A DNA stretch of 64,000 nt from Apostichopus japonicus (taxonomy: Eukaryota; Echinodermata; Holothuroidea; Aspidochirotida; Stichopodidae). A program made the translations under genes and the position numbers. Below are positions 2,652-63,555 of the stretch, piece after piece. The stretch covers positions 28,002,111 through 28,066,110 of the forward strand of contig NC_092576.1 in assembly GCF_037975245.1 (NCBI RefSeq), in the 5' to 3' direction. How positions within the stretch are numbered: position 1 is the first letter of the stretch; every line of letters begins with the position of its first letter. Below the pieces are notes generated by a model. The model did no database searches. It saw nothing but the letters and a program-made list of their open reading frames with translations, and was not told the origin of the DNA.

Positions 2652-2655
<4 letters not shown>

Positions 2656-3640
2656 TGTCTGTTGGCGTGTGTTGGAAAGTAAGATATATCCACAAGAAAA
2701 AAATGGAAAAAAATGATACTTTCATTTCCAACCTTATTACTTAGAACGTTAAATTGGTTACAAAATATTTCGAGCGTTAACACGGCTCTTCTTTAGTAGT
2801 AACGAAATGGAAGAAACTAGACCTTATTGGTATTTAGCTTAGCATGTATGCTCATAAAAGAGAGATCTCTGTTGAGCCCATTGTTGTGTGTGTGTTGAGG
2901 CGTAAGATAGTTTTTAGTTCCCGGTTGCTTCTTTCATGAGCGGTTTGAAGAAGCCGTAGAGAATGACAAATTTATGGTCAGATAAGTTGTGATTGGGGAG
3001 ATTAAATTGTTCAGCAACAGGAAAACCTGGGTTATTTTTGCGGATACTTAGTTTGTGATTATTGAAGCGGAGTCTGAACTTTGTGCTGGTTTCGCCAATA
3101 TAGGTGACCTGGGGCCACTTGCAACAATACAGCAGGTAGATGACATTGGCTGAGTCGCAACCAAATCTACCAGGTCTCAGAGTAGTGCCTGAGGCCCGGT
3201 GGAGGAAAGCGGGGGGGGGGGGGGTTCGAGGTGTGTGCACACCAAGCATCTAGGTTTGTTACAGGGGATGTTACCACTGTCAGGTTCATTACTGGGTGGG
3301 GCGAGATTAGTGCGAACCAGCACTGAGCGGATGTTACGTGGTTGTCTATAGGCTATGACAGGGGGGCTTTGATAGGCTATGACAGGGGGGCTTTGAAGAG
3401 TTCAGCTATTCTGGGGTCCGAACCTAGGGTGCCCCAACTTGTCTCAGACTCCTTGTTTCTGGCTCCTTCGGTAGAGCGTGTGTTGAGCATCTTGTTGAGG
3501 TGAATATATTTGTCAGGTGTTGAGGAGGCGGTGTTGTTTCTGATGAGTTTATTAAGGATGGGAGAACGGCGGATTAGGGATCCCGGTTTCTCGTTCTTCC
3601 GTTTGAGACTTTTGTTAAGTTCGATATGAAGGGACTTACT
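2652..3640 (-). mobile_element. Penelope-like element A, inverted partial copy (GIY-YIG end), copy 1
   Basis: Minus-strand sequence encodes the C-terminal GIY-YIG endonuclease region of a Penelope-like element (IYLLYCCKWPQVTYIGET, then a basic RLRFNNHK). It is followed toward lower coordinates by the 3' untranslated end, which holds a hammerhead-like motif. About 740 bases (roughly 2685-3430) are an inverted repeat of the plus-strand element's 3' part at about 5974-6695. From about 3430 to 3640 the minus frame reads a basic peptide beginning SKSLHIELNKSLKRKN, fused to the SWGTLGSDP block of the C-terminal region. The piece therefore looks like an internally deleted PLE joined head to head with the plus-strand PLE. 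A poly-G run at about 3211-3224 interrupts the frame. Confidence 0.8.
2768..2796 (-). ncRNA. Hammerhead-like ribozyme motif in PLE-A inverted arm, core mutated
   Basis: The minus strand has CTAAAGA, a GAGC/GCTC stem with a 9-base loop, then GAAA. The canonical box is CUGANGA, so the third base has changed from G to A. The equivalent position in duplicate copy 2 (33119-33147) still reads CTGAAGA. Hammerhead motifs in Penelope-like elements are established. Here one extra A precedes the stem, so activity is unproven. Confidence 0.45.
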
Positions 3641-3754
3641 CAAATGAGACTTCCCTGGTTGTCAATCTTTTTTGCCATGAACTCACGACAGGCGCATGTG
3701 TTGGAACTAGGGCTTTCATACTGCCCTACAGCTCAGGTGGACCCCGTGGAACTG

Positions 3755-6566
3755 ACCAATGATTTTAACCAATTCACCGGAAAGTTCGCCTACGAGAATG
3801 GGCAGACAGCAAAGAACCGTCTAACCGCCCACTTATCGTACAACGCAACATAGCCAAGAAGACCTGGACACCACCTGACAACCGTAACGCATTTATAGAC
3901 AGCTTTGTTAATACAGCCAACTCGCATCTTAGTTCATTTCTCTCGTCCATTTGCACCAAAACACCAGCACCCAGCAACTTTGACAGATCAGACCACAAAG
4001 CCCTAAACGAACTCCGTCGCAACTCAGATATAATTATCAAACCAGCAGACAAAGGAGTTGCTATTGTGGTTATGGACACCACCAACTATGTCGCAGAGGC
4101 GCAAAAGCAACTTTCTGACGTCCGTTTCTACGAACTACTGGACAACGATCCCACCTCTCAATACCACAGACACCTAATTTCTTTGGTAAATTCGTTTAAC
4201 GTTAAGGTAAGAGAAGAGGTTGTAAAGCTCATACCCTCCGCCCCCACACCCGCACCCTTCTACACACTCCCCAAAATACATAAACTGAAAGGCCTTGTCA
4301 GCAATAAACATAAGAATGCTGATAAACTGTCAGACCACGAGGTGTTCGAAATCGCTCGTAAACAACATATATTCGCTCCCGGTAGGCCTATTGTGTCTGG
4401 TATTGGTACCCTTACAGAAGACATTTCCGCCTAATATGTTGACTGTAACGGTTGATTCACAATTTCTATGCGTAAAATATATTCATTGATATTTAAACCT
4501 GTTCGTATTTATAATTTGTAAGCTCGGCAGCAATCTCGTGCAATCCTGCATGGCAAATATTCCCAGATGCGGAATTCTTCACATTACAGTACCGCACAAT
4601 GGTAAGTTTAAATTGTTTTGTGTAAGAGGCCGAGACGTCTCTCACTGGGCATTATTCCTCACAGACTGCACAGTCTTTGTGCAGACCGGGCCGACCATGC
4701 ATGTCGCTTAGACACGATTTACTTTCTTTGACACACCTTATTCATGTGAAGTGAATGTCCTCATATGCTGAAGGAATAGCTGTAACTTAAGACCGCCTTA
4801 ACTGAGCCGATATTTGCAAGAGTCCAAGAGGTACGTTAATTTATGTTATGGTTTAGATGTAAGTTTACCCCGGACCTAAAGGCTTCTTCCTGTCCAGTTG
4901 TATATGTATTCGATCGAATGTGCACTTTGTAGTTGTTTGTATAAATATTATTTGTATTTGTAGTTTTCACGAAGGTAAACAAAGAAACGAAGACGAATAA
5001 ATAAAGAGCAACCTTCCGAAGAAGACTCGGTCTTTCTTTGACGGCTACAGTTACATTGACCGTTTTTTTACAACCTCTTCTCCCCAACATACCCAGCTAT
5101 ATTCAAGATAGCACCCACTTTCTTAACAGACTTAAGGAAGTCCCGCCCCTCACTGAAGGCGCCATTCTGGTAACCATGGATGTTTCTGCCCTGTACACCA
5201 ATATCCCCCATAGCGAAGGTGTCCTGGCTTGTAATAAGATGATGGCGTCTAATGATGTCAACCAACATGGTGAGATCTCGCAGCTCATTAAGTTTATACT
5301 TGAGCATAATAACGTTACCTTCAATGGTCGCCATTATCTGCAAACCAAAGGCACAGCCATGGGTACCCGAATGGCCCCCTCATATGCTAATATTTTTTAT
5401 GTATTACCTGGAACAAGAATTACTTTCTTCATCCTCTTACAAACCATGTCTCTGTGTACGTTATATTGATGATATTTTTATGTTATGGGATAAGGGGCGA
5501 ACAAGAACTTGACAACTTTTTCACGTTTGCCAATGATTTTCACGATTCCATAAAGTTTACCACCGAACGGTCCACTAAGCAAATCCCATTCCTCGATGTA
5601 CTCGTCATGATCGAAGATCACAAAATAGAGACATCGGTGTATGCCAAACCCACTGATAGGCACTCTTATTTCCACTTTAATAGTTTTCATCCCCGCCACA
5701 CCCAAAAATTCCATTGTTTACAGCCAGTTACTCAGATACCGGCGTATCTGCTCACATGACCAACCTTTTTTTTAATAAGGCCATTGAACTGTTTGATTTC
5801 TTCCTTCAAAGGGGATACCCGTACCGAATACTTAACTTTCACCTCAAACGGGTTCTGTCTCTACAACGATGTAGTCTCCTAACCTATCGTAAAAAATCTG
5901 TTTCTGATAGACTACCCCTCGTTGTCACCTACCACCCCTCCCTTCGCCCCCTTTTCAATGAAATCAAACAATCTTGGGGGACCCTAGGTTCGGACCCCAC
6001 AATAGCTGAACTCTTCAAAGCCCCCCTGTCATAGCCTGTAGACAACCACGTAACATCCGCTCAGTGCTGGTTCGCACTAATCTCGCCCCACCCAGTAATG
6101 AACCTGACAGTGGTAACATCCCCTGTAACAAACCTAGATGCTTGGTGTGCACACACCTCGAACCCCCCCCCCCCGCTTTCCTCCACCGGGCCTCAGGCAC
6201 TACTCTGAGACCTGGTAGATTTGGATGCGACTCAGCCAATGTCATCGACCTGCTGTATTGTTGCAAGTGGCCCCAGGTCACCTATATTGGCGAAACCAGC
6301 ACAAAGTTCAGACTCCGCTTCAATAATCACAAACTAAGTATCAGCAAAAATAACCCAGGTTTCCCTGTTGCCGAACATTTAATCTCCCCAATCACAACTT
6401 ATCTGACCTCAAATTTGTCATTCTCTACGGCTTCTTCAAAACCGCTCATGAAAGAAGCAACCGGGAACTAAAAACTATCTTACGCCTCAACACACACAAC
6501 AATGGGCTCAACAGGGATCTCTCTTTTATGAGCATACATGCTAAGCTAAATACCAATAAGGTCTAG
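3755..6566 (+). pseudogene. PLE-A reverse transcriptase/GIY-YIG endonuclease, broken, copy 1
   Basis: The product would copy element RNA at a nick made by its GIY-YIG nuclease domain. Visible blocks are SDIIIKPADKG (about 4020-4052), FYTLPKIHK, RPIVSGIGT, then after the insertion TMDVSALYTNIPH, GTAMGTRMAPSYAN and RYIDDIFMLW (the catalytic YIDD, about 5455-5490). FLDVLV, YAKPTDRHSY and finally YIGETSTKFRLRFNNHK follow. Frame changes occur near 3815, near 5393, near 5500 and near 5710. A further break falls at the poly-C run near 6165 and another near 6385. The LTR-like insertion separates the ISAY and FLQPLLP parts of one reading frame. The RT catalytic residues themselves are intact, but no continuous protein can be made. 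Confidence 0.88.
4437..5055 (+). mobile_element. Solo-LTR-like insertion inside PLE-A RT, copy 1
   Basis: The 619-bp segment interrupts the RT reading frame: the codons before 4434 and after 5055 belong to one PLE protein. It begins TGTTGACTGTAACGG and ends GGCTACAGTTACA, so it has TG...CA termini with an imperfect inverted relation (ACTGTAACGG versus CTACAGTTACA). A TATAAATATT motif lies near 4938 and an AATAAA at 4996-5001. These are features of a solo LTR. A clean target-site duplication is not visible, so a different insertion type cannot be excluded. Confidence 0.6.
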
Positions 6567-6589
6567 TTTCCACCATTTCATTAGTACAA

Positions 6590-6618
6590 CTGAAGAAGAG
6601 CCGTGTTAACGCTCGAAA
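6590..6618 (+). ncRNA. Hammerhead-like ribozyme motif in PLE-A 3' UTR, copy 1
   Basis: CTGAAGA is followed by a GAGC/GCTC stem with loop CGTGTTAAC and then GAAA. This matches the CUGANGA...stem II...GAAA core of the hammerhead motifs known from Penelope-like elements. One extra A sits between the first box and the stem, so the fold may be a degenerate version. It lies between the GIY-YIG coding end and the TA tail. Confidence 0.5.
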
Positions 6619-6694
6619 TATTTTATAACCTATTTAACGTTCTAATTAATAAAGTTGGAAATGAAAGTATCATTTTTTTCCTTTTTTTTCTTGT

Positions 6695-6695
<1 letters not shown>

Positions 6696-6788
<93 letters not shown>
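6696..6788. repeat. (TA)n microsatellite at PLE-A 3' end
   Basis: This is an imperfect TA tract with short interruptions (TGTATA, ATAAATATA) following the PLE 3' UTR. It is about 14 bases longer here than in the duplicate copy at 37053-37130. Confidence 0.9.
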
Positions 6789-8400: not shown

Positions 8401-9570
8401 AAACAACACTATACAATATCATATATCAACATTATACAACATAACATATCAACACTATACAATATAAAGTATCAACACTTTACAATTTGATATATCAACA
8501 CTATATAATATAATATATCAACACTATAACAATATAATATATCTATATGATACAATATATCAACACTATATAATACAATATATCAAGACTATATAATATA
8601 ATATATCAACAGTATAACAATATACTATATCAACACTATAACAATATGATATATCATCACTATATGACACAATATATCAACACTATATCATATCATATAT
8701 CAACACTTTATAATATAATATGTCAACACTATATAATGTAATATATCAACATGATATCAATATAATACATCAACACTATAAAATATAATATACCAACACT
8801 ATAAAATATAATATATCAACAATATACAATATAATATATCAACACCATATTATATAATATATCAACACTTTATAATATAATATATTAACACTATATAATA
8901 TAATATATCAACACTACATAATATAATATATCAAAATTATAACAATATAATATATCAACACTATATAATACAATATATCAACACTTTATAATATAATATA
9001 TTAACACTATAACAATATAATATATCAACACTATACAATATAATATATCAATAAAATATAATATATCAACACTATAACAATATAATATATCAACACTTTA
9101 TAATAATATATCAGCACTATATACTATTATATACCAACACTAATCAATACAATATATCAACACTATAACAATATACTTTATCAACACTATAGCAATATAA
9201 TATATCAACACTATATCATATAATATATAAATACTATGTAATACAATATATCAACACTAACAATTTACTATATCAACACTATAACAATATAATATATCAA
9301 CACTATATAATGTAATATATATATACACTATAACAATATACTATATCAACACTATAACAATATAATATATCAACACAATATGATATACAATATATAAACA
9401 CTATGTAATACAATATATCAACACTACAATGTACTATATCAACACAATAGCAATACAATACATCAACACTATATTATATAATATATCAACACTATATAAT
9501 ACAATATATCACCACTAACAATATATATATCAGCACTATAATAATATAATATATCAACACTATAACATAG
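8401..9570 (+). repeat. TATATCAACACTAT minisatellite, copy 1a
   Basis: Roughly 55-60 degenerate units of about 20 bases share the core TATATCAACACTATA(A)CAATATAA. It ends about 50 bases from the stop codon of the LRR pseudogene. The same array lies downstream of each LRR gene. Lack of unique spacers and the drift between units exclude a CRISPR array. Confidence 0.95.
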
Positions 9571-9621: not shown

Positions 9622-11055
9622 TCAGTGTTTAATACAATACAAGACAATACTAGCAATGACACTAACAACAACAACACACAACATTAGTATTCCAACTATT
9701 GTTGTTATATGAAAGTCTAGGATGTGGGAATGTTCAGCAAACGACTGAGTCGTCAAGACTACGGGTGTGACCAGAACTGTAGTGCTTGCACAGTGGCTAG
9801 AAGGCCAGTTCATGAAATCGGTACCTCGATATTCGATTGGGTCATAACATAACATCTCGTATGTAAAATACCCGGTATTCGTTAACCATTTATATATGAA
9901 TATTAACTTGCAATCACAATACCAAGGATTATTTCTCAAGTCAATACCAAAATCACTCAATGAATCCAGAATTCCGTCAGGTAATGATGTCAAGTTATTT
10001 TTCGATATGTCGAGAAAATTCAAACGGTTTAATCCATGGAGTGACGAGACATCCAACCATCTGATCAAATTATCGAACAGGTGAATCGCAGTCAATTCGT
10101 TATTGTTGATGAAAGCATTGGCAGGGATATGGCTAATTTTGTTTTTAAACAACTTCAAAATATGTAGCTTCGGCAGTTGTTTGAATCATTCCACAGGAAT
10201 TTGACGTAATTCATTGTTAGCTAAATTCAAATATTCTAGATTATGAGTTTCGTTCCCAAATATGAAACCATCAACCTGATTTATGCCGTTATTTGGCAGA
10301 ATTAGATCTTGTAGATTCTTCAGACTACAGAAAGAATGATTTTGTAAACGTTTAAGTCTATTTGAGCTCAACGATACCAGCTCTAGGAGACTGGGAAAGG
10401 TACAATCGTTTGGTACTATTAACTCCGATAAGAAATTGCCGTCCAGATACACTTTGCGGTTATTAACAAGTTCCAACAGAGCAAAACGCTCCAGTAGATT
10501 ATTATTTAGATCTATTGAGGTTAAATGTTTTAATCCTATGAACGCACCGGGTGAGATGGTGTGTATTTGATTGTCGACTAAGTACAAGTCGGATAGGTTT
10601 CGGTTGTTCTGGAAAGATGATGATGGCACGGAATCGATTTGGTTCCTATTTAAGAAGACAGTCTCAAGGTAGGACAGAGTTTGCAGTAATTCGATTGGAA
10701 TCCTCGTTAGGTTGTTGCCTGCCAGTTTCAGATACGTAATGAATGAATTGTTTCCAACCAGCGATTCAGTTACAGTCAGTATTTGGTTGTCACTCAGTTC
10801 CAAATAGTACAAGTTAGGGCAGAAAGGAAGGACAATTTGTCCGGTCTGCAAACGTGGAAGGTCGGTGTTTGTGACTATAATCGCCGCCAGCCATGAGATA
10901 GACTGTTGTATCGGAAAGCTAGGCACTGTACCACTGTCACCGTCACAGATGACGGCACTGTAACCGCAATTGCAATATTGCGGACAATTATTGCTTGCCT
11001 GCACAATCACCAGGTTGATGCAAATCATACAAAACCAAGTCAAATTGACATACAT
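9622..11055 (-). pseudogene. LRR receptor paralogue with premature TGA, copy 1a
   Basis: This is a paralogue of the intact 474-aa LRR gene at 24256-25680. Reading starts at the ATG of MYVNLTWFCMI (the frame is open further upstream but without an ATG). It gives a signal peptide, an LRRNT with CPQYCNCG, and LRRs up to ...LRQIPVE. A TGA at 10186-10188 then replaces the Leu codon TTA found in the intact paralogue. The frame resumes at once (FKQLPKLHIL...) and runs without further breaks through the remaining LRRs, the LRRCT (NPWYCDC...SSHC) and a C-terminal hydrophobic segment ending LYCIKH. One base change is thus the only lesion. The upstream part could still make a truncated, secreted, roughly 289-residue LRR protein. 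The same TGA is in copy 2. Confidence 0.88.
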
Positions 11056-12035
11056 TGTAATAATTACTGTCTCAGTCTTGTATTTCAAAAGGATGATATC
11101 CAGTTTTTGAAGAATTCTGCCGAAACAATATCAAAAAATGGATTATAAACGTTAGACTATTCAATGGGTGACATAAGTTAAAATACACGGGAACGGCGGA
11201 ACCCGTATTGAGTTAGGGATGGGCGGGTTAGGGGAGGAGCGGGGATGGGGGGCGGGGGGGGTGAGAACAAGATTTCTCAAGCTTTGTCTCCTGAGAAATC
11301 AAAAGTAAACCTGAGTCCCAATGGTAGTGGGGTAGGTAGGAAGCTATCAAAATGTGTGATAGGGGAGGGGACGGAAGGGAGAAAGAAACCGATGCGGGCC
11401 AGTTTGGTTATCCCCCCCCCCAAAAAAAAATTACCTTTCTTGATGTAATATCGGAATTTCTCTTTTATTTCTCGAATATGTGAAATTTATTCTCGACATT
11501 TCAAACTGGCGACATATTTTAATTTTCAAACTTTCCTCGTTTATCATCCAACTTTCGACTTTTTATTCTGGAGATTTCGACTATACTTTATTTGAAAGTT
11601 TCAACTCGTTCCTCAATATTAAGAAAAATTCTTGATAACACTATCGACATTTTGCTCAAGTTATTGGTATCTTACATGTTAACATTTTTACCTCAAAATA
11701 TGTCTATTATAACTTCCATTATTATGATGCAGATATTTCGACTTTACCTTGCAATTGAATCGTTTAACCCAATAGTTCGACTATTTAATTTCTAAATAGT
11801 AACAACTTTTCTCAGAAATGGCGACGAAATGTCGAAATTATTGCAGCATGGTTATATGAATCACATAGATTGATCATTTTAGGGTTGATTAATATATACG
11901 TATACGGGAGTTGAAGTAGGACGCCACATTTCTTTTCAAGGCGGTACCGAGGTGCGATGCAACCATGTTTGTTGTGTACGGATGGACCTGACGACATTTA
12001 TAAATGAATATCGCCAGTTATTATTTTAGTTTATT
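11056..12035. other. LRR upstream region with G-rich and TTCGAC-rich stretches, copy 1a
   Basis: This region lies upstream of the minus-strand LRR pseudogene. About 160-210 bases from its ATG is a G-tract cluster (11218-11263), with a C-run at about 11410-11420. Then comes several hundred bases of degenerate sequence rich in TTTCGAC and TTCTCGAC motifs. The first 600 bases are shared with the region upstream of the intact LRR gene (25681-26325). No promoter element could be assigned with confidence. Confidence 0.55.
11218..11263 (+). other. G-tract cluster upstream of LRR pseudogene (potential G-quadruplex), copy 1a
   Basis: Several runs of three to eight G are separated by short loops (GGGATGGGCGGG, GGGG, GGGGG). 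It is repeated upstream of all four LRR copies, and run lengths differ between copies. It could form a G-quadruplex; a regulatory role is inference only. Confidence 0.5.
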
Positions 12036-12260: not shown

Positions 12261-12745
12261 TCTATTACACAGGCTCTCTAGTGGATAAGCAGTTTGCTAA
12301 CAGATTTATTTTATTTTGATTTTCAGCTGCTCTGTTACTGTAACCCTTCGGGTGATCCTCCTTATTTACTTTGTACTTTGTATTTGTATTCTTGTGTTTC
12401 AGTTTTTCATTTCATTTTTATCATTTACTCATCCCGCTGCTTTCACCATGTCTCACCATTTTCTTTTGTTTCAGAAGCTCAGAAAATTGATGCAAAAATC
12501 CCAGCGCTATTCTTTCTATCTTTGCAACTACAGGTTCTACTCTCTCTCCCGCATTATTCCCTCAGGTCTATAGGTTACACACCAACCAGCACTAGGGACA
12601 CTCCCTCCAGGACTCCAGAGAGATTGGAACCGAGTCTTACACAGCACCTCCATCCGTCTCATCAACATCCTCACCAAACACTGCCGATCGTCCTTAGATA
12701 GTGTCTCAGCAGAACATTGAACTCACAGAAAGAAGAAATAAGAAA

Positions 12746-15043
12746 ATGACTGACCTTCAGAAAAGACGAAAACGTACCGCTTGCAACCGTTTTAAAAGGC
12801 CCCAGACTCCACCTGAGTCTGAACCACCATCCTCAACTGCAGTTGTTAACTTATCTTCTTCTACTCTTACCAGTGCAGACCTTAGGCTTCTCTCCAAAGG
12901 ACTCAACTTCTGTCCTACTCCTCCATCATTTGACCAAGCGGAACTGAGCCAAGATCTTACTCATTTCTTTCGCAGAATTCGCCTTCGTGAGTTTTTCCTA
13001 GATGATCCTCCAACTGAACGGGAACCCTTTTGCAAGAAAAGTTCTTGGATGCCTCCTAAGAACAGAGTCCCTGTTTTAGAAGTCTACACACAGGTCGTCA
13101 GCTCTGAGACTAACCAGTCGAACTCTCCTCTCCGCAGAACACACAACAACCACCTTCCAAACGATGAGCGTACAACACTCTGCTCACTGATGTCTCGCAG
13201 TGACAATATCATTAAGCCAGCCGACAAAGGTTCTGCAGTTGTCATCCAGGATCGACAGGATTACATCAAGGAAGCCATGCGTCATCTCTCCAACAGTGAT
13301 ATTTTAACTCTTCTTGATTCTGTCTCCCACAGTTATTTTCTCCAAGCAGATAAAAAACAGACCATCACTGATATGTACCAGCGGAACCAGATCTCTAAGA
13401 AGGCTGTTTCTTTCCTTTCTCTCACAGACTGTAAGGCAGCCAGGTTTTATCTCCTGCCCAACATTCACAAGCCTGGTAACCCTGGTAGGCCTATCATCTC
13501 AGGCAATGGGTCTCCCACCGAGAAGATATCCTTGTTTGTGGACCACTTCATCAACCCTCTTGTTCCTCAGATTAATTCTTATATCCATGACACTCCAGAT
13601 TTCCTCAGGAAACTTGAAGATATCAAGAACCAAATCCCCAGTACAGCCATCATCGGTACTTTCGACGTCACTTCTCTTTACACTAATATCCCTCATGCTG
13701 AAGGTATCGCAGCCACGTGTGCAGCCCTGTCTAAGAAGGTCCACCCTTGTCCACCCATCTCTGATATCAAAGCTCTCATGCAACAGGTTCTCACCAAAAA
13801 CAACTTCACGTTCATGGACAAGCATTACCTTCAAAGACACGGGACTGCCATGGGAACCAGGATGGCTCCTTCCTTTGCATGCCTGTTTATGTCTAGCCTT
13901 GAAGAACGCATGCTCAGTACGGCTCCCTGCCGTCCCCTTATCTGGTGGCGCTACATTGATGACATCTTCTTCGTTTGGACCAGTGATGAGGATAGCCTGC
14001 TCACCTTCATCAATCACAATCAATTCTTTCCACAGCACCATCAAATCACCTCTGATTACTCTCACCAACAGGTTAGCTTTCTCGATGTGACTGTTCGCAA
14101 GGAACACGGTTCTCTCTCTACAGACTTATACACCAAGCCCACAGACACACACCAGTATCTCCATTCTTCAAGCTGCCTTTCCCCGTCACTGCAAGTCTGG
14201 AATTGCCTACAGACAAGTACTTCGTCTTCGTCGCATTTGCTCTAACAATTCCTCTTTCATTCGCCATACAGATGCTTTAGAAAAACACCTTACTGCCAGG
14301 GGCCATAGTGCCAGGGTGCGTGAAGCCATTCAGAGAGTCCGCTCCCTTTCCAGATCATCTACTTTGGCAGTGAAGTACGAAAAGGGACGAGATTGCGACA
14401 ACAAGCTGCCCCTGGTTGTTACTTTCCACCCAAATCTTCCTCCTCTTCAGAAAATCACCTCTAACAACCACAACATTCTCCTCACTTCAGATAGACTCCA
14501 ACGAGCCGTTCCTGCAAAACCCATCATCGCCTACAGACGACCACGCAACCTACGAGACCTTCTTGTGCTGCTGTTCCACCTCTAACTTCTTATCCTACAC
14601 CCATTCAGCATGGTACTTTCAAATGTGATCGTACTTCGAGATGCATCGTCTGCAGCCACCACATTGTTGAATCCAATTCAATCACCAGCCACAGCATGCA
14701 ACTCACACACAAGACTAAGGGTCACATCACTTGCACTACCACCAATGTCATCTATCTGATCTCTTGTAGAGTTTGCGACATCCAGTATGTTGGCGAAACC
14801 AAAATCACCCTCAGGAAGCGATTCTATGGTCACAGATCCACAGTCAACACCATGAAGACGGAGACCCCAGTTGGAGAACATTTTAACCTTCCCAACCATA
14901 CCATTAACGACATGTCCCTAAAGGGGACTGAATCCTTAGGTAGCCGTCCTGACCTAGTACGAATCAGCAGAGAGAGGCTCTGGATGCAACGCCTTCGTAC
15001 CATTCAACCTCATGGGCTGAACATTCAAGAAGGACATGACTAA
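12746..15043 (+). pseudogene. PLE-B reverse transcriptase with C-terminal GIY-YIG endonuclease, two frameshifts, copy 1
   Basis: This is a Penelope-type RT fused to a GIY-YIG nuclease, the enzyme for target-primed copying of the element. The long frame is open from a GTG at 12701; the first ATG is at 12746 (MTDLQKRRKR, basic). Blocks in order: SDNIIKPADKGSAVVI, FYLLPNIHKPG, RPIISGNGSPTEK, TFDVTSLYTNIPHAEG, GTAMGTRMAPSFA and WWRYIDDIFFVW (catalytic YIDD). SFLDVTV, YTKPTDTHQYLH and LPLVVTFHPNLP follow. The nuclease has VIYLISCRVCDIQYVGET and LRKRFYGHR. An extra base near 14180 and a base loss or gain near 14566 each change the frame; apart from these no stop was seen. Both lesions are shared with copy 2. 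The catalytic residues look intact. Confidence 0.92.
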
Positions 15044-15276
15044 CTTTTCCTCTGTTCCACATTCCTTCTCCCCTTTCTCCCTCGCCCCTTTCACTCATCT
15101 TCTCACAGCTCTCTTCCCCTCCTTTTTTTCTCCACACCTTTCTGTCTTTGTCCCTCTCCAGTTTATTCCCTACCCTGTGCCTTTAATCCTCTCTTTGTCC
15201 CTCCACTGTTTATCTCCTACCTCTCCTCTTCCCCTGTTACTTTCTTCTCACCATCCCTTGTCTACTTTTAATCCCC

Positions 15277-15425
15277 TTTCATCTATCTCATTGTGTTCAC
15301 CGTGCTCATTAACCTGTCTGTATTCTGTGCGTGTTTTTGTCCCCTCTGTTACTGTAACTTGTCATTTAGCCTCTGTAGAAGATCCTGCTAGGATCGAAAC
15401 GTCAGGGCAACTTACTTTTACACAT
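15277..15425 (+). repeat. PLE-B 3' terminal direct repeat (pseudo-LTR), copy 1
   Basis: This is the direct repeat of 12112-12260. The hammerhead-like first box at 15373-15379 reads CTGTAGA, with the invariant A changed to T, while the stem and GAAA are kept. Confidence 0.85.
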
Positions 15426-15436
15426 AAAATCATTCT

Positions 15437-15960
15437 TGTTATAGTGTTTATTTTCAACAACAAAAAAACATCTTTTAAGGTGGACAAAAGCCTCCCCTAC
15501 CACCCACCCACCCCGGCTCCGCCGTAAAACAATGAATCGCCGCAACGGAGATATAATTTGGTTTAGCCTATCTGTTCAGAAGCCAAACACGATGACATAT
15601 GTTCGCGGGTCGCGCGCGTAGCTCTCGGAGTGAACACTCGCTCGATGACTATACTTACGAGTAAGATATGTCAACCTTAGTAGAAAGAACCTACAAAGAT
15701 TTCCATCTATACAATTATATCGCTATATTTTGTAAGCTATTTTTAATAGAGGGTGTAAATATTAATACATTGTAGAGACAGGGAGATTTCTATAGGTACT
15801 TAACTTGATGTAGGTAGAAGGAACATTACAATATAAGCAACTCAACTATTTATAATATCCTATAAAGAATTTATATTCAGAGCCGTAGAATATGTGAAAC
15901 TTTATCAAAATTAGATGTATCTATGTATCGAATCACTGTTCAATGTAATGTATCAGGCGT
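15437..15960. other. Unassigned host sequence right of PLE-B, copy 1
   Basis: No gene was recognised here. A short CpG-rich spot lies near 15605-15640. The end of the stretch (AAAATTAGATGTATCTATG, about 15909-15927) is also found at the edge of the RT fragment near 27744, so it is part of the older module duplication. Confidence 0.5.
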
Positions 15961-15996
15961 ATACACACGCACACATATATATACATATACACACAA

Positions 15997-16033
<37 letters not shown>

Positions 16034-16060
16034 TATATATATATTTATTTATTAATTTAT
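15961..16060. repeat. CA/TA microsatellite, copy 1
   Basis: This is a compound repeat of ACAC, then TATA, then ATTT units. It adjoins the 3' end of the RT fragment that follows and may have grown from its tail. It is 14 bases longer in copy 2. Confidence 0.9.
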
Positions 16061-17640
16061 TTTACAAAATTTCTATAGCGCCTTATCCAATCAGAAATTG
16101 CTCTAAGGCGCTTTACAGTAAAATACAAACAAACACGATATACAAATATATAAATCGTTAATGTAAGGTATAGAAAGGGTAGAAAATTTGTTATATACCA
16201 TCTGACAATAAATTGTATAAAAACTGCAAATGGGAAATCGAAAATTATACATACAAATTCTTAAAATTTAAAATATATAATTATGCGTAAAATTAAAATT
16301 TTAAAAGCACCATAAATGCAAAATGGAAAATGCGTTGTAATAATGTGACAATATAAATAGTATAGAAAGCACGGTTAATGGAATGCAGATCTAAATAGAA
16401 AGGTTTTGACTAGGTTTTGAAATTCATCTATATATTTGGCACACTTAGCTTCCTCCAATAAACTGTTCCATAATGTCGCAGATGAGTAGTCGAAGCGCCT
16501 GTTTCCGTATGTAGAAGTTTTAAAAACAGGTTTGGTAAGTAAAGACTTGGATTCTGAGCGTAGAGATCGAGTAGGCTTGTATTTATGTATTAATTCAGAG
16601 AGGTAGATAGGGGCTAAACCATTAAGTGACTTATTTGTATATAACAGAATCTTATAATTGAACCTGCAATGAATAGGCAACCAATGTAAGTCACGTAATA
16701 TAGGTGTAATATGCTCATGTCTACGAGTGCGACTTACAAGCCGTGCAGCGCGTTTCTGAACTCGCTGAAGGCGATCGGTCAGTTTGTGAGGCAGGCCGTA
16801 TAGCAGAGCATTGCAGTAATCCAGTTTTGATATCAAAATGGATGGATTAAAGTCAGACACGCATCATCTGAGATATACCTTCTAATTTTGCCAATATTTT
16901 GGATCTGCCAATAAAATAAATCAAGTAACAGGACCAGATAATGGTGCGGTTTTCCGCTGAAACATGTCAGAGAGATAAGCCGGGCTGCATGATTCATACG
17001 TTTATACACATAAAGACATAATTTAAAATGGATTCTTTCACGGATAAGTAACCAATGCAGAGCACGTAGAAGAGGTTTTGGGCTATCTAACCTAGCTGCC
17101 GAGAAAATAAATTTAGCACAACAATTTTGAAGGGATTGAAGGCGATTCAGGTCTTTTGATGTAGCACCATATAAAAGGGCAATGCCATAGTCAAAAAGTG
17201 AGAGGAGAACTGCGCGGACAGCAGAATAGCGAGTTTCTTTATCAAGATAACGGTCAATACGAAATAAATTCCTGAGATGATAATTACATGATGAAACTAA
17301 GCTGTTAATCTGTTTTGTCATTTTAAAATCTGAATCAAAAATGATCCCGAGATTACGAACTTCACTGGAGGGGTTCATATGGCAGTTTCCAACTTCCAAC
17401 TGAAGTGGAGGTAGATTTTGGAGACTTTGTTTTGTACCAGCTATGAAAAACTCAGTGTTGTCATTGTTTAATTTAAGCTTATTCAAATTCATCCAAATCA
17501 TAATGTCAGAGATACAGTTTTGTAATTTCTTTAATGCCAGTTCTGCTTCACCAGGTATGTTAGGGTTGAGTGATACATAAGGCTGAGTGTCATCAGCATA
17601 GTAGTGAAAATTAATTTTATGGTTACACATGATAAAACCC
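16061..17640 (-). pseudogene. Chimeric L2/CR1-like non-LTR retrotransposon fragment (RT-1), copy 1
   Basis: The minus strand encodes the second half of a non-LTR reverse transcriptase: YYADDTQPY (catalytic YADD), LNKLKLNNDNTEFFI, then a thumb region ending at HWLLIRERIHFKLCLYVYKRMNHAAR. Right after this the frame goes into a second, related thumb (FYWQIQNIGKIRRYI, DYCNALLYGLP, LHWLPIHCRFNYKIL, TLWNSLLEEAK) and on to a C-terminus. Two equivalent thumb modules in a row mean that two different elements are joined near 16980. The 3' end has a small hairpin (GCGCCTTA...TAAGGCGC-like, about 16078-16115), typical of this group. Both 5' ends are truncated. It is inactive. Confidence 0.82.
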
Positions 17641-19136
17641 AGAACATCAGAACAACTAAGCAGTTTTTGTTGTTGAAAAACTGGCGTGACTGCCGAATTG
17701 ATTTACTTGATTAATGCTATCCACTTTCATTAACGTAATGCAATGTTACTATCAATTAAGATTAGATTATGAGAAAATAATGCAAACCTGTCAATTCCGA
17801 AACCATTTCTGAGCCTATCTACCACCATAATAACCAAAACTAAAGACGACAAGAATAATTAATGTATAGAACTTAAGAAATACTTACTTTATAAAGAAAA
17901 TCTTCCCGAGATGGGCTTTAAGGATAACCCTCTAGATCTTATGATCGAAAGCTTGAGGCGAATATAGCCTTATTATAATTGAACCTTTAAACTGTACTTT
18001 AATTAACCAGATAGTGCCAAGACTGTCTAAGGCAGAATTTTGAACTGACAAAGAAATATCATTTGGTATGGTACAACCAACAATATAATGACATAACCAA
18101 CTTACTTTTTCGCACAATTAGAATATCCAATATCGCCTAGTTTGTTAATTTATGTGTATCTCTGCCAGCTGCTCTATGTATCACGGGAAGAAATTATATA
18201 TAATAGTGACACGGCTGATATCCTCACAGCCAGGAAGCATTGACAATATTTCTGTTTGAAGTGATTTGCTTTGCGGTGAACTTCCCTCGAGCGATTCGTC
18301 TCAAATGAGTTCTCTTGGTAGGCTATGAAACCGTGTTACTAAATTGCAAACTGCTAAAAGCTATTTTTACTTGCTAAATAGTTGAGAAAGAAGTAGCAGG
18401 GATATTAGTTAATCCTCTCTCGTTTAAGTCATGCAACTGACAGGAAGTTTCCGTTGCCATCAGAATGGTTATAATTTAGAGAACGGGGACTTAAAGTCTC
18501 AAAGAAAGGAACTAAGCGATGTAAGTGTAAGATGTAAGTGTCGGGAATATTTCAGCTGTGTAAACATAGATATTAGAGAAGGAGGCTGCGATTGCAAACT
18601 TTCCAATCATAGCAAAAGTTGCCCGGACTGGTCCTAATGCTGTAGACGAGAGAAAGTTAAAGCAGTATTAAAGTGATCTATACTTTGTATTTATGTAAAT
18701 ATGTATCCGAAAATGTGAGATCATGAACTATATACGACAGTATGTTTTCCATGAAATAGTTGAACAATGAAGTCTATAAATTAAGTACTGAGCTTTAATC
18801 TTGGGTTTCATTTATGTTATATTCTCGATGAAGGTCACGACTCGTGAATTTCAAGGTGCCGTTCAAGTGTAAATTTCTTACCAACATTGCTCTGTTTAGT
18901 GGTGTAAGTGAACCAATGTTAGATACAATCAACTGTTCGCATACTAAATTCATGCTATGCTTTTTTTATTGGAATATGACACCAAATGTTAGGGTGAATT
19001 GCGCTTACGGTTATACCTTCATCAAAGTTAGACTTTTACACAAAACGACTGGGTAGATTGTCTAAGTTCTACTATATATATATATTGTATTTGTCATTGT
19101 TTGCAACATTACTACCGTATGTAGAAATGTTATTGA
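17641..19136 (-). pseudogene. SLC22 3'-region relic lacking the terminal exon, copy 1a
   Basis: The sequence is collinear with 61028-61748 plus 62613-63390, that is the 3' flank, middle exon and intron of the SLC22 gene at the right end. The block holding the last exon (61749-62612) is absent, and the join reads GAGAAAGAAGTAGC at about 18388. The middle exon at 18541-18639 has lost its donor. A recurrent small frame at 17932-18117 is part of the shared 3' flank and is not called as a gene. Confidence 0.78.
18541..18639 (-). pseudogene. SLC22 middle-exon relic, donor lost, copy 1a
   Basis: On the minus strand, after the acceptor CGTCTACAG, the frame reads LGPVRATFAMIGKFAIAASF and then SNIYVYTAEIFPT. 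That is the conserved SLC22 segment around helix 10. The last codons and the donor GTATGT found at 62756-62761 are replaced by a short duplicated TAAGTGTAAGATG stretch (plus-strand reading), so correct splicing is lost. Confidence 0.82.
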
Positions 19137-26344: not shown

Positions 26345-26603
26345 GTTATCAAAATTAATAATAATAATAATAAATAAGTTCTTAATATATCACCAAATAC
26401 CAAAATGCCTCTAGGCGCTTTACAAACCTAAAACAAATAGAAACAAAAAGACAGAGAAATCAAAGGAATAAAAAGTCTAGAAAACACATAAACGAAAATT
26501 AAACAGTATGTTAAATACGAACACAAAAATCTTAAAACACGAGAAGACTATAGAACGGACCAAAACCTATAAAAAACAAAACAAAGGATAAGCACATAAA
26601 ATA

Positions 26604-26628
26604 GATTTATATAAATTTTATATAAATC
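26604..26628. repeat. Short palindrome (11-base arms), copy 1
   Basis: GATTTATATAA and TTATATAAATC are separated by ATT. It directly precedes a much longer perfect palindrome, so two hairpins lie side by side near the 3' end of RT-3. Confidence 0.85.
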
Positions 26629-26680
26629 GTGGTTTTATCTAGACTGTTACTTTTAAAGTAACAGTCTAGATAAAACCACG
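26628..26680. repeat. Perfect 53-bp palindrome (26-base arms, 1-base spacer), copy 1
   Basis: The left arm starts CGTGGTTTTATCTAGACTG and the right arm is its exact reverse complement, with a single T between. It lies in the 3' untranslated part of the RT-3 element and is conserved without change in copy 2 (57027-57079). It may be an inverted duplication formed on insertion or a structured 3' RNA element. Confidence 0.95.
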
Positions 26681-27779: not shown

Positions 27780-27791
27780 TATCAGGCGTAT

Positions 27792-49506: not shown

Positions 49507-49509
49507 TAT

Positions 49510-56746: not shown

Positions 56747-58173
56747 ATCAAAATTAATAATAATAATAATAAATAAGTTCTTAATATATCACCAAATACC
56801 AAAAGGCCTCTAGGCGCTTTACAAACCTAAAACAAATAGAAACAAAAAGACAGAGATATCAAAGGAATAAAAAGTCTAGAAAACACATAAACGAAAATTA
56901 AACAGTATGTTAAATACGAACACAAAAATCTTAAAACACGAGAAGACTATAGAACAGACCAAAACCTATAAAAAACAAAACAAAGGATAAGCACATAAAA
57001 TAGATTTATATAAATTTTATATAAATCGTGGTTTTATCTAGACTGTTACTTTTAAAGTAACAGTCTAGATAAAACCACGAGTATATAAAAGTGACAAAAT
57101 CACGCAGAGAAACTAAAAAGATGTGTTTTTAAAATTTTCTTAAATATGGCGAGATTTGGCAGTCTTTATGTCGTGTGGTAGGTCGTTCCAAAGCTTCGGT
57201 GCAGCGACCGAGAAAGCGCGATCTCCGTAGTTCTTGGTTGAGACGGTTTTCGGGACCACGAGGAGTGCCTGCGATGCTGAACGGAGCGAGCGTCCCGGGG
57301 TGTAAGCAGCGAGAAGATCTCTGATGTAAGCAGGAGAAAGAACGTTGAGTGACTTGTAAGTAAGCATTAGAAATTTAAACACAATGCGGTCCTTCACTGG
57401 AAGCCAATGGAACTCGTTCTTTCGCAAGGCATTTAAGTTAACATCCCTACCAAATACACCCAGGACAACTCGAGCGGCACTATTCTGCACGCGTTGTAGC
57501 TTGACAATGGCAGAATTTGGTAGGCCACAGAGAAGACTTATTGGCATCGAGATGAGATGTTACGAAGGCGTGTACAAGTCGTTCAGCAGTCGGCCGATCT
57601 ATATATTTCCTTAAACGACCAATCTTTGATATCCCAAGACTTGCAGAGCGACACACTTTGCTCACATGCGATTGAAGCGAAATGTGTCGGTCCATCAACG
57701 CACCGAGATTCCGTGCTTCCGGAGCAACATCAACTTTCGTGTCACCAACTTGAATAGTGGAGATATGAGACGGATTCTTTATAAAACGCGAGGAAAAGTG
57801 AAGAACCTCCGTCTTGGTGTCGTTCAGCATTAACTTGATGGCAGTGGTCCACGCTTTCACGCTGCCAATACAGTCTTCAAGTCGCTGAAGTTGATCCCCT
57901 CAAGCCTCAGCAGGATTAAGCACAAGGCACAGTTGGGTATCGTCTGCATACATCATTGTCTGAACGCCGCGAGCCTCCATCAGATCCTCGAGTGGTGATA
58001 CATAGACAGTGAACATGAAAGGTCCTGCAACGGAACCTTGGGGCACAGAGCAATCCATGAGATATGTTTCTGATACACTGTTACCAATGGCAACCATTTG
58101 CCGACGACCGCAGAGATAACTCTCACACCACGACAGAGCGTCGGCACGTAGTCCGTAGCGATCCAAAAATTAG
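56747..58173 (-). pseudogene. L2/CR1-like non-LTR retrotransposon fragment (RT-3), copy 2
   Basis: This is the duplicate of 26345-27743. The catalytic motif is YADD (YADDTQLC) where copy 1 has YAED, and the 30-base stretch near 57845-57880 lost in copy 1 is present. A stop just after NPAEA (57900-57902) and a frame change near 57540 keep it inactive. Confidence 0.85.
57027..57079. repeat. Perfect 53-bp palindrome, copy 2
   Basis: It is identical to 26628-26680, again preceded by the small palindrome at 57003-57027. Confidence 0.95.
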
Positions 58174-58224
58174 ATGTATCTATGTATCGAATCACTGTTC
58201 AATGTAATGTATCAGGCGTATACA

Positions 58225-58250
58225 CACACATATATATATATATATACATT

Positions 58251-58292
<42 letters not shown>
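58225..58292. repeat. TA microsatellite, copy 2
   Basis: This is the counterpart of 27780-27872 with fewer CA and more TA units. Confidence 0.9.
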
Positions 58293-58295
<3 letters not shown>

Positions 58296-59990
58296 ATATA
58301 TGCATTTATATAGCGCTAATTTTGTACAAAACATTCAAAAGCGCTCAACAAGGAAAAAGCCAACCAGTCGGGTCAATCAAAATAAGCAAGCCTAAACAGA
58401 TACGTTTTTATCTTTATCTTGAAAGCATCCAGGGTCAAGGAGTCAATACACATCAATTCCACTGAAGTGAATTCCACAACCGAGGTCCTTTGTAGGCAAA
58501 CGCCCTATTGCCTAAAGTATTATGATTGATACGAGGAACATGCAGGGTGATTTGAGAATGTGAGCGCAAAGAGTAAGAACTAGACTTCACCAAGATCATA
58601 TCACATAAATACTTAGGTGCATGACCTTTCAAACATTTAAATACTTGCAAGATTAGTTTAAATTCAATGCGTTGCTGTACAGGTAACCAATGAAGAGATT
58701 GTAAAGTAAAAGTAATGTGACAAAATTTAGGAAGAGCGTTAATCAACCGAGCCGCTCCATTAAGTACCATTTGAACTCTTCGAAGCTTATAATCAGGTAA
58801 ACCAATCATGAGTGCATTACAATAGTCAATATGACTAATTACAAAAGCATTAATAAGAGTTTTAGTACAATCCTTATCTAGGAATTTTCTGATCTGACGA
58901 ATATTATAGAGTCCATGGTATGCCCTATAGCAAACTTTTCCAATATGAATGTCCATTGACATGTTGCTGTCAAGATTAACCCCAAGATTTTTTGCACTAT
59001 TACATGGCTTAATATCCACGTTACCTACTTTTATCATCTGAACCCGAGTCTTAGCAACTTGTTGACGAGTACCAATTAAAAGAAACTCAGTGTTGGAATC
59101 ATTGATCATTAGCCTATTGCTGATCATCCAATGTCTTATTTCGAATATAAGTGATTGCATTGTCAGAACAGCCCGTTCCTCAGATAACAGAGAACCAGCA
59201 TTGAAAGATCAATATAACTGTGTATCATCAGCATAACTATGTGCGTTAGGAAGGTGTTTAGAGACAATGGCAAACAACTGAGAAACATAACAAAGATAAA
59301 GAATAGGACCGAGACAGCTGCCCTGGGGTACACCACAATTCAAAGAAAAATCTTTCGATGAGATATTTTCTATAGATACATGCTGTTTTCTGAAAGACAG
59401 ATAATTGCCAATCCATTTTTATGCATTATTAACAATATCAAATTGGATACGCAACATGTTCACATGAATATCATGGTTAACAGTATCGAACGCTGCACTC
59501 AAATCCAACAGGATTAAAAGAGTGCATTGTTGTTGGTCCATATTCATCAATATATCACTATGTATTTTCATAAGAGCAGTTTCTGTAGAGTAATTTTGCC
59601 TGTATGCAGATTGACAATCAGGAAAAGGAGCATGTAATGAACAATGTGAGACAAACTCATTAACTACAGCTCGTTCAACTAACTTGGAAGCATAGCTCAA
59701 ATTACTAATTGGTCTATTACTAGAATAGAAAGAGTCCAAACCTGCTTTCTTTAACAATGACTAACGGTAGCAATCTTCCATTTGTCAGGAACATTACCAT
59801 CTTTTAGTGAAAGATTTATCATGGTAATCGATACAGGCAAAAGGGGATCAAGACACTTTCTAAGTAACCAAGTGGGAATAGGGTCAAGATTGCAGGTAGC
59901 CGTGTTGGAGGATTTCATAATTGTGAGAACTTCATCATTAGAAAGTGGCTTGAACCCAGTGAACTTCGATGGGAAATGCTGTCGAACATT
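58293..59990 (-). pseudogene. L2/CR1-like non-LTR retrotransposon fragment (RT-2), fuller copy 2
   Basis: The thumb and C-terminal part is open for 235 codons (58453-59160). Upstream come SYADDTQLY with a stop directly after it, PQGSCLGPILF, LLDLSAAFDTVNHD and SAYRQNYSTETALMKI. Farther upstream is TCNLDPIPTWLLRKCLD, then MINLSLKDGNVPDKWKIATV (about 59770-59975), a part missing in copy 1. A TAA near 59760 and the stop after YADDTQLY block translation. It is the best-preserved of the minus-strand RT fragments. Confidence 0.86.
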
Positions 59991-61015
59991 TATATATATA
60001 ACAGAATCTTATAATTGAACCTGTAATGAATAGGCAACCAATGTAAGTCACGTAATATAGGTGTAATATGCTCATGTCTACGAGTGCGACTTACAAGCCG
60101 TGCGGCGCGTTTCTGAACTCGCTGAAGGCGATCGGTCAGCTTGTGAGGCAGGCCATATAGCAGGGCATTGCAGTAATCCAGTTTTGATGTCACAAGGGCA
60201 TGGATTAAAGTCTTACACGCATCATCTGAGATATACCTTCTAATTTTGCCAATATTTCGGATCTGCCAATAAAATAAATCAAGTAACAGGACCAGATAAT
60301 GGTGCGGTTTTCCGCTGAAACAAGTCAGAGAAATAAGCCGGGGCTGCATGATTCATACATTTATACACATAAAGACATAATTTAAAATGGATTCTTTCAC
60401 GGATAAGTATCCAATGCAGGTCACGTAGAAGAGGTTTTGGGCTATCTAACCTAGCTGCCGAGAAAATAAATTTAGCACAACCGCAACGATTTTGAAGAGA
60501 TTGAAGGCGATTCAGGTCTTTTGATGTAGCACCATATAAAAGGGCATTGCCATAGTCAAACGAGAGAGGAGAACTGCGCGGACAACAGAATGGCGAGTTT
60601 CTTTATCAAGATAACGGCCAATACGAAATAAATTCCTGAGATGATAATTACATGATGAAACTAAGCTGTTAATCTGTTTTGTCATTTTAAAATCTGAATC
60701 AAAAATGATCCCGAGATTACGAACTTCACTGGAGGGGGTCATATGGCAGTTTCCAACTTCCAACTGAAGTGGAGGTAGGTTTTGGAGACATTGTTTTGTA
60801 CCAGCTATGAAAAACTCAGGTTTGTCATTGTTTAATTTAATCTTATTCAAATTCATCCAAATCATAATATCAGAGATACAGTTTTGTAATATCTTTAATA
60901 CCAGTTTTGCTTCACCAGGTATGTTAGTGTTGAGTGATACATAAAGCTGAGTGGCATCAGCATAAGAGTGAAAATTAACTTCATGGTTACACATGATAAA
61001 TCCCAGAACATCAGA
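59991..61015 (-). pseudogene. Second chimeric RT-1-type fragment next to SLC22
   Basis: The minus strand encodes SYADATQLYVSLN (catalytic YADD altered to YADA), LNKIKLNNDKPEFFI and LVSSCNYHLRNLFRIGRYL. It then goes through a frame change near 60550 to the second thumb, IGKIRRYISDDACKTLIHAL and DYCNALLYGLPHKL, up to FNYKILLY. It has the same two-element chimera as 16061-17640, so that join was made once and then duplicated with the SLC22 module. Its 3' end is cut off by RT-2 at 59990. It is absent from duplicate copy 1 (about 29385-29396). Confidence 0.82.
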
Positions 61016-61027
61016 ACAACTAAGCAA

Positions 61028-62213
61028 AACTGGCGTGACTGCCGAATTGATTTACTTGATTAATGCTATCCACTTTAATTAACTTTATGCAATGTTACTA
61101 ACAATTAAGATTAGATTATGAGAAAATAATGCAAACCTGTCATTTTCGAAACCATTCCTGAGCCTATCTATTACCATAACAACCAAAACTAAAGACGACA
61201 AGAATAATAACAACATCAAGCATAGAAGTATAAAACTGAAGAAATACTTACTTTATAAAGAAAATCTTCCCAAGATGGGCTTTAAGGGAAACCCTCTTGA
61301 TCCATCGATCGGAAACTTGAGGCGAATATAGTACATATACCTTATTATTTCTAAGCCTTTCAACTGTACTTTAATTAACCAGATAGTGACAAGACTGTCT
61401 AAGGCAGAATTTTGCACTGAAAAAGAAATATCAGTTGGTATGGTACAACCAACAATATAATGACATAACCAACTTACTTTTTTGCACAATTAGAATGTCC
61501 AATATCGCCTAGTTTGTTAATTTATGTGTATCTATGTATCACGGGAAGAAATTATATATAATAGTGACACTGCTGATATCCTCACAGCCAAGAAGCATTG
61601 ACAATATTTCTGTTTGAAGTGATTTGCTTTGCGGTGAACTCCCCTCGAGCGATTCGTCTCAAATGAGTTCTCTTGGTAGGCTTTGAAACCGTGTTACTAA
61701 ATTGCTAATTGCTAAAAGCTCATTTGACTTGCTAAATAGTTGAGAAAGATTGTCCTTTTATTCTCGATATTGAAGATAAAAACCATGGCCTTTAAATTAC
61801 AGATTGGAGAAGATGATTGCTGATTCTTATCTTTTTATATCTTTAACGTTTTATTTTACTTTTCTACCTTTGGTTTCTTTAAGTGGTTAAGGTAAAGAGG
61901 ACATGGAAACTATAATGATGCCTTATGTATTTGTTGTTAAATATGCTAAGCGAAAACTGTTATCGAGATGTTAGGCTATAACTAGCACATGTAACCCAAA
62001 TATCAATAATTGGCAAAAGAGGTTTATAAACAGTTTAGACTGAACTACATAAAAGGCTGCCTGTGAAATCAAAATGACCTTTGCGACTATATCTTTAAAG
62101 CTCAGCCACTAAGAGTTACACGCCACTGCGTCGCATGATGTTTCACATATAATGGGCGAAAGTTCCACCAGAGCATTCGATCACCGTAATATAGCAAAAG
62201 ACTGTAATTTTTA
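61028..62213 (-). other. SLC22 3' flank / probable 3' UTR region
   Basis: This lies downstream of the SLC22 stop codon on the minus strand. Positions 61028-61748 are shared with all SLC22 relics, while 61749-62213 are not. A small frame at 61253-61489 recurs in the relics but matches no known domain. A GTAAGT donor-like motif on the minus strand lies at 61246-61251. Confidence 0.5.
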
Positions 62214-62460
62214 TCAAGCATCTTGGATAGAAGACGGATGCTTCATTGGTGTCTTCAATGCCAACGTATCCGCGATTGTATCTGGCATTGCCTTCCCTCT
62301 TGTCTCTGGGAGCAAAAATATCAGGACACCAGCCAGAACTGATGAAGAGGCAAACAGAACGAGAGGCAGTGGTCCCCAGATGTTCTCTAAGACTAAGACG
62401 AGAGGGGCCATGATTCCTCCCACTCGAGCTGCAATCGAACAGGAACCAACACCGAGTGTT
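62214..62460 (-). CDS. SLC22-family transporter, terminal exon (helices 11-12, C-terminus)
   Basis: The acceptor ...CTCATACAG precedes 62460. The frame (phase: one base, then codons) reads TLGVGSCSIAARVGGIMAPL, an NIWGPLP loop, a second hydrophobic helix with LLPETRGKAMPDTIAD, and stops at 62214 after SSIQDA. The GVGS...ARVGG and PETxGKxxPDTI patterns are signatures of organic cation/anion transporters of the SLC22 group (major facilitator superfamily, plasma membrane). The segment gives 81 residues. The preceding exon ends with AG, giving an Arg codon at the join (PLR-TLGVG), as in the family. This exon is missing from all relic copies. Confidence 0.9.
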
Positions 62461-62761
62461 CTGTATGAGAAATGAAATGTGTAAAATACTTTTGTTTAAC
62501 GGTTAGTAGGATTGTCCAACTGTTTTCAAAGTAAGTTCATTTACTTTTGTGTAACCAGGGACGTGTTACAGATAAAGAAACAGATCTCTCGCCAGAGGTA
62601 GTCTTCATTAAAGAAGTAGCAGGGGTATTGGTTAATTATCTCTCGTTTAAGTCATGCAACTGACAGGAAGTTTCCGTTGCCATTGGAATGGTTATAATTT
62701 AGAGAACGGGGACTTAAAGTCTCATAGAAAGGAACTAAGCGATGTAAGTGGCAATACATAC

Positions 62762-62870
62762 CTTAAAGGTGTCGGTAATATTTCAGCTGTGTGAACATAG
62801 ATATTAGAGAAGGAGGCTGCGATCGCAAACTTTCCAATCATAGCAAAAGTTGCCCGGACTGGTCCTAATG
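62762..62870 (-). CDS. SLC22-family transporter, middle exon (helix 10)
   Basis: This is a 109-bp exon with acceptor CGTCTACAG and donor GTATGT. It reads LGPVRATFAMIGKFAIAASF then SNIYVHTAEILPTPL. IGKFxIxxxFxxxYVxTAExxPT is the family's helix-10 signature. Phases match the exon upstream (C|CA, Pro) and downstream (AG|A, Arg). Damaged or orphan copies of this exon occur at 2072-2147, 18541-18639, 30331-30439 and 48917-49015. Confidence 0.9.
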
Positions 62871-63555
62871 CTGTAGACGAGAGAAAGTTAAAGCAGTATT
62901 AAAGTGATCTATACTTTGTATTTATGTAAATATGTATCCGAATATGTGAGATCATGAACTATATACGACAGTATATTTTGCAATGAAATAGTTTAACAAT
63001 GAAGTCTATAAATTAAGTACTGAGCTTCAATGTTGGGTTTCATTTATGTTATATTCTCGATGAAGTTCACGACTCGTGAATTTCAAGGTTCCGTTCAAGT
63101 GTAAACTTCTTGGGTGGTAATCAAATTGAATAGAGCGGATGAAGTACCAACATTGCTTTGTTTAGTGGTGTAAGTGAAACCAGTGTTACATATAATCAAC
63201 TGTTCGCATACTAAATTCATGCTATGCTTTTTTTTGGAATATGAAACCAAATGATAGGGTGAAGCGCTTACGGTTATACCTTTATTAAAGTAAGACTGTT
63301 ACACAAAACGACTGCGTAGGTAGTCTAAGTTCCATTATATATATATATTGCATTTGTCATTATTTGCACCATTACTACCGTATGTAAAAATGTACCTTAG
63401 TCTTGTTATATATGTTGCAGTGGTTGAAATAAAGTTGAAGTAAATATGAATGTAAACATTAAAAAGGAAATTGTAATAAGCTGATAGTTTCCTGACGGAC
63501 TGACATTTCTCTAACAATAAAGAACCGGTGTCTTTTCGTATGCTGAGCTACTTAC
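62871..63555. other. SLC22 intron, shared with relics up to about 63390
   Basis: This intron lies between the helix-10 exon and the helix 7-9 exon. The part up to about 63390 is the same sequence found in all relics. A short TA tract lies at 63337-63350. At about 63391 the relics switch to GAATT-type satellite, whereas here the intron continues. Confidence 0.7.

Follow-up and report, generated by a model that had tools for sequence, protein, structure and literature searches.

A 30 kb direct repeat with a near-identical core between diverged edges at an LRR receptor-like locus of Apostichopus japonicus

The stretch of Apostichopus japonicus DNA analysed here (64,000 bases, hereafter the window) holds two direct copies of a unit of about 30 kb. 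This raises the question whether the locus was truly duplicated, and if so whether recently, or whether two haplotypes of one locus were joined by the assembler. Comparison of the window with itself by megablast gave a direct match in two pieces, one of 24,917 columns with 99.4% identity (2595-27443 versus 32945-57840) and one with 97.3% identity (27443-29381 versus 57873-59799), which bears out the continuous diagonal (2595-29381 versus 32945-59799) implied by the original prediction. Self-comparison and an anchored global alignment placed the second copy of 2652-29381 at 33002-59799 on the forward strand, with 26,686 aligned bases, 83 substitutions and 25 indels, and the copies agreed in order and orientation over this range. 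No N letters were found in the 64,000 bases and there was no gap between the copies. Chance is excluded as the source of a repeat of 27 to 30 kb because of its length and identity, and as adjacent copies in the same orientation, longer than 1 kb and more than 90% identical, the repeat has the size, identity and arrangement of a tandem segmental duplication. The two stretches described earlier as present only in copy 2 are real (1186 bp at 59800-60985, and 865 bp at 61745-62609 or 61750-62614), and the right end, previously put at about 63175, lies within 20 bases of that position (63185-63194). A tRNA scan and an Rfam scan gave no result; the Pfam scan covered ten frames.

Divergence between the copies was distributed very unevenly. 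Likelihood-best breakpoints at 4320 and 26406 divided copy 1 (forward strand) into a left edge at 2652-4320, containing an inverted 3' fragment and the start of a first Penelope-like element and differing from copy 2 by 1.2%, a near-identical core at 4321-26405 (0.05%), and a right edge at 26406-29381 (1.7%). With the global alignment cut at 4400 and 26400, differences were counted at 21 of 1747 aligned bases in the left edge, 51 of 2957 in the right edge, and 11 of 21,982 in the core of ~22 kb, which also contained 13 indels. The terminal modules beyond the right edge (29390-30768 versus 60986-63194) differed at 73 of 1352 positions, or 5.4%. Three segments reached a log-likelihood of -465.9 compared to -562.3 for one rate, a gain of 96 log units obtained with breakpoints fitted to the same data. 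Fisher p values between neighbouring segments were 8e-17, 5e-37 and 2e-10 (core versus either edge below 1e-16), and the odds of a difference were 24 and 35 times higher in the edges than in the core. Left and right edge were no different from each other (p 0.18). The original prediction of a near-identical direct repeat of ~30 kb thus held for continuity, direction and order, but identity is uneven, and a "very recent" origin fits the core only and not the whole unit, since edges and ends differ by 1.2 to 5.4%.

Five of the 11 core substitutions fell in repeats of TA, pentamer or satellite type (6748, 8657, 19305, 19310, 23591) and six elsewhere, while seven of the 13 core indels were located within TA, pentamer or satellite arrays and six were themselves single-letter strings. 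Sequencing error was considered an unlikely source of the edge differences because 72 of these are substitutions. Concerted evolution predicts an inner tract that far exceeds the flanks on either side in similarity and has abrupt limits, and such a tract is seen here; alleles would give the same pattern. By counts only, transitions made up 28 of the 72 substitutions in the edges 2652-4320 and 26406-29381 (28:44 transversions), compared to about 1:1 in the module comparisons described below.

The core carries two LRR genes. LRR1 (9622-11130, reverse strand) is an LRR receptor-like frame with an in-frame TGA, and LRR2 (24256-25710, reverse strand) is an open LRR frame of 484 codons (Pfam LRR_8, E 6e-37) whose relatives in PDB, among the 60 of 313 matches listed, included IGFALS, LRRC15, LGR4/5 and TLR3. 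Both frames, including the TGA of LRR1, were letter-identical between copy 1 and copy 2, in agreement with the shared stop reported before. The TGA is found at 10186-10188 and in the second copy, and LRR2 has TTA at this place. Between the two genes and their upstream flanks 121 of 2043 positions differed (satellite excluded), with dS 0.053, dN 0.033 and dN/dS 0.62 over 429 codons with the stop codon skipped. As LRR1 and LRR2 occur together in one copy they are not alleles of each other, unless the inside of the copies was misassembled as well. Both genes are followed, immediately past their 3' ends, by a 23-bp AT-rich satellite (8404-9564 and 22565-24195, and their copies), which recurs in inverted form in the left flank (12-1142). 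Clusters of intronless LRR-transmembrane receptor genes occur in animals, and the locus resembles them in its single-frame LRR genes, its repeated cassettes and, by reading, a hydrophobic C-terminal stretch; it is unlike them in that one of the two paralogues in each unit has a stop.

The LRR genes are accompanied by modules with fragments of an SLC22-like transporter gene, all on the reverse strand where placed. Module M1a (16638-19130) consists of a probable non-LTR reverse-transcriptase fragment together with SLC22 intron and exon sequence without the last exon. M1b (29390-30768) is truncated at both ends and begins ~8 bp past 29381 in copy 1. In copy 2, ~195 bp follow 59799 before M2b starts at 59995 and runs to 63394, so that the 1186 bp specific to copy 2 are made up of these ~195 bp and the start of M2b. 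M2b further includes the 865 bp, with AAAGA at either end, which are missing from M1a, M2a and M1b. When the copy ends were compared with the outer flanks, M1b was a 5.4% counterpart of M2b lacking the 1186 and 865 bp. The last coding exon (62217-62459, reverse strand) lies within the 865 bp and showed homology to OCT2 in PDB (E 7e-13) and to other SLC22 members; Pfam gave no family above threshold for this exon alone. By tblastn, a middle exon (62761-62871, reverse strand) was seen to be retained in M1b (37 of 37 residues aligned), in M1a and M2a (34 of 37 each) and in the inverted left flank (27 of 37). By tblastn the last exon and a probable upstream exon (63557-63751, reverse strand) each had one strong match in the window. 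It was the last exon that gave the assignment to the SLC22 family; the middle and upstream exons were placed by their order and by reading. Since the last and upstream exons have one strong match each and the middle exon occurs in every module, the right end of the window probably represents the parent SLC22-like gene and the modules partial copies of its 3' region from which the last exon is missing. The window stops inside an octamer array of GATAGACA with seven perfect copies (63945-64000).

The modules and the left flank point to older duplications at the locus. M1b and M2b were about as distant from each other as either was from the module inside the unit (M1a-M1b 72 of 1308, M1a-M2b 99 of 1515, column 1240 onward), and M2b differed from the inverted left-flank piece at 26 of 619 positions (column 1240 onward). 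Where two of the modules M1a, M1b and M2b agreed and the third differed, the pair was M1b with M2b at 38 sites, M1a with M1b at 36 and M1a with M2b at 32, which describes a star, and the divergence between LRR1 and LRR2 was about equal to that among the modules. The left flank (1-2146, reverse strand) is an inverted partial cassette of 23-bp satellite, pentamer run and module end (1521-2145): positions 17-1528 matched 9509-8006 in inverted orientation with 85% identity, positions 1521-2145 matched 63394-62797 with 93%, and all 12 matches listed for 1-2594 were inverted. The unit is composed of older cassettes of LRR gene and SLC22 fragment, with a further, inverted one in the left flank; the cassettes differ by ~4 to 6.5%. 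The locus had very probably been duplicated earlier, whatever the 30 kb repeat is, and it looks prone to duplication independently of the 30 kb event, as the modules are star-like and as diverged as LRR1 and LRR2.

A sister relationship of M1b and M2b, dating from the same time as the neighbouring right edge, was also considered, but this was rejected because M1b and M2b differ more than that edge does (73 of 1352 versus 51 of 2957, p 2e-10). With the sister reading dropped, the allelic-like position of M1b is left to older duplication or ectopic exchange. In 200 columns around the site of the 865 bp, M1a and M1b agreed at 11 of 15 informative sites, compared to 25 of 91 elsewhere (p 0.001, an optimistic value for a stretch chosen after inspection of the module comparison), which hints at a short exchange between modules around this site.

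TA tracts stood at the left boundary of both copies and at the right breakpoint of copy 1. Homology stopped abruptly on the left side at (TA)n tracts, located at 2595-2651 for copy 1 and, with a length of 82 bp, at 32920-33001 for copy 2. Copy 1 ends with AACCAGTG followed by a (TA)n tract (30759-30783), and M2b reads AACCAGTGTTACATATAATC at that place without a TA tract. The joint at 30759 accordingly brings together unlike sequences without long overlap. The spacer between the copies (30759-33001) contains two elements. An LTR-like element at 30784-31627, classed from its ends only, has TG..CA ends and ATAT on either side, and it had no other match in the window (E 1e-8, low-complexity masking). 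It is followed by a TA tract and by a TA-flanked element of 1266 bp (31654-32919), classed from its ends and flanks, with imperfect terminal inverted repeats CACTGTAA..TTACAGTG, which matched only itself in the window (same settings); the 82-bp TA tract and copy 2 come next. Neither element had a counterpart in the left flank at E 1e-8. If both elements are subtracted, the joint reads SLC22 intron, TA tract, unit.

Taken together, we think it rather probable that a real, older tandem duplication underlies the repeat and that unequal exchange or long conversion recently homogenised its core. In our judgement the balance is tipped in this direction by the diverged edges, by the spacer and by the signs of earlier duplication within the unit. 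That two haplotypes of one locus were joined by the assembler, with the core sharing recent common ancestry and the edges heterozygous, appears possible, though we doubt it. A drop in divergence from 1-5% to 0.05%, followed by a return to the higher level, would be natural between the alleles of an outbred animal, and two haplotypes with a core identical by descent would be expected to give the same mosaic; this counts against the homogenisation reading, as does the fact that M1b occupies the allelic position of M2b, with the same location and orientation relative to the unit. According to a study on false duplications, places where homozygous stretches border on heterozygous ones are liable to such errors, and of the 24.1 Mb falsely duplicated in its new zebra finch assembly 22.2 Mb lay on the same scaffold, compared to 7 to 24% in older assemblies (PMC9516828). 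The study describes false duplications as separated mostly by gaps and at times joined by unsupported sequence (PMC9516828), whereas neither gap nor N was found between the present copies. An allelic contig start would further be expected to run into allelic sequence, whereas neither of the two spacer elements is represented in the left flank. The joint of unlike sequences at the (TA)n tract would require either a real molecule or a chimeric read. M1b also resembles M2b no more than it does M1a, and the 865 bp are missing from both M1b and M1a. We judge that the absence of a gap, the spacer elements and the joint favour a real duplication, although they do not settle the matter.

Two simpler histories of a real duplication found little room in these data. 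A very recent tandem duplication with the whole 30 kb of one age would agree with the mere 11 differences in 21,982 core bases, but the odds of a difference at the edges and the poor fit of a single rate contradict it unless the edges were overwritten from elsewhere, and we rejected it as very improbable. Such overwriting of the edges alone, by ectopic conversion from other family members after a recent duplication, seems if anything still less credible. The greater similarity of M1b to M1a around the site of the 865 bp indicates that short ectopic exchange may occur here, but an internal outgroup exists for ten of the 21 differing left-edge sites, and these were divided 6 to 4 between the copies, as under independent mutation, and showed no clear run from a single donor.

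For an older duplication with a homogenised core, the repeat, its mosaic, the joint and the older cassettes allow an order of events to be proposed. Cassettes of an LRR gene and an SLC22 3' piece would have multiplied first, giving the copies now ~4 to 6.5% apart with one inverted, which is a well supported step. The 30 kb unit would then have been copied head to tail, with a new joint connecting SLC22 intron sequence (AACCAGTGT) to the (TA)n tract beside the Penelope-like fragment, and the two mobile elements might have inserted into the TA tract of this joint later. As the mosaic suggests, a pair of unequal exchanges, or a single long event of conversion or break-induced replication, could recently have removed almost all differences between the copies over the 22 kb core while the edges stayed diverged. 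Duplication at the TA tract, followed much later by such exchange or conversion of the core, would account for the diverged edges, the near-identical core, its abrupt limits and the joint. Conversion tracts in experiments are mostly hundreds of bases long (PMC3924818), so that 22 kb would need exchange or break-induced replication. Putative conversion events in human segmental duplications had a mean length of 6.26 kb, and the longest 10% exceeded 14.4 kb (PMC10172114); a tract of 22 kb is therefore long but not unheard of. Only tentatively do we propose that one exchange or break-induced replication event of ~22 kb recently copied the block of two LRR genes onto its tandem neighbour, the block lying between older diverged edges and a joint made of (TA)n and transposons. 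If this is true, concerted evolution of this receptor cluster would have worked on units of tens of kilobases and not on single genes.

Either way the event is of an already known kind. The adjacent copies, diverged edges, near-identical core and multigene-family genes inside resemble tandem segmental duplications with interlocus gene conversion or concerted evolution, with a core longer than typical experimental conversion tracts and within the range given for human segmental duplications (PMC10172114). Adjacent copies whose identity changes from near-homozygous to heterozygous levels are likewise features of false heterotype duplication, a VGP term (PMC9516828), from which the locus differs in having no assembly gap and in spacer mobile elements without counterpart in the outer flanks. 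If real, the locus would represent a clear nested duplication, of cassette and then of 30 kb unit, with a recently homogenised block of receptor genes, and the identity of the core would date the last exchange and not the duplication. If false, the LRR gene count of the assembly is doubled at this place and one copy should be purged.

Some observations concerned the mobile elements inside the unit. The second Penelope-like element (12698-15043, forward strand) has frameshifted reverse-transcriptase and GIY-YIG-like frames, for which Pfam gave RVT_1 above cutoff (E 1.6e-8) and GIY-YIG just below it (E 1.5e-4, 22.5 bits, cutoff 22.6). No substitution and no indel separated the copies within 12344-16000, and the frameshifts in this region are therefore shared by identity, as had been claimed. 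Pfam found no family for the frames at 3769-4434, 16833-17702 and 58453-59208, so the labels of these elements, including "Penelope-like" for the first element and reverse transcriptase for M1a, were given by reading. Next to the first Penelope-like element lies an inverted duplicate of its 3' end (2595-3372 and 6015-6788, 93.75% identity). Three apparent Penelope-like 3' ends adjoin (TA)n tracts (2595-2651, 6697-6788 and 15975-16052, and their copies), so that the target or the tail of these elements may be rich in TA.
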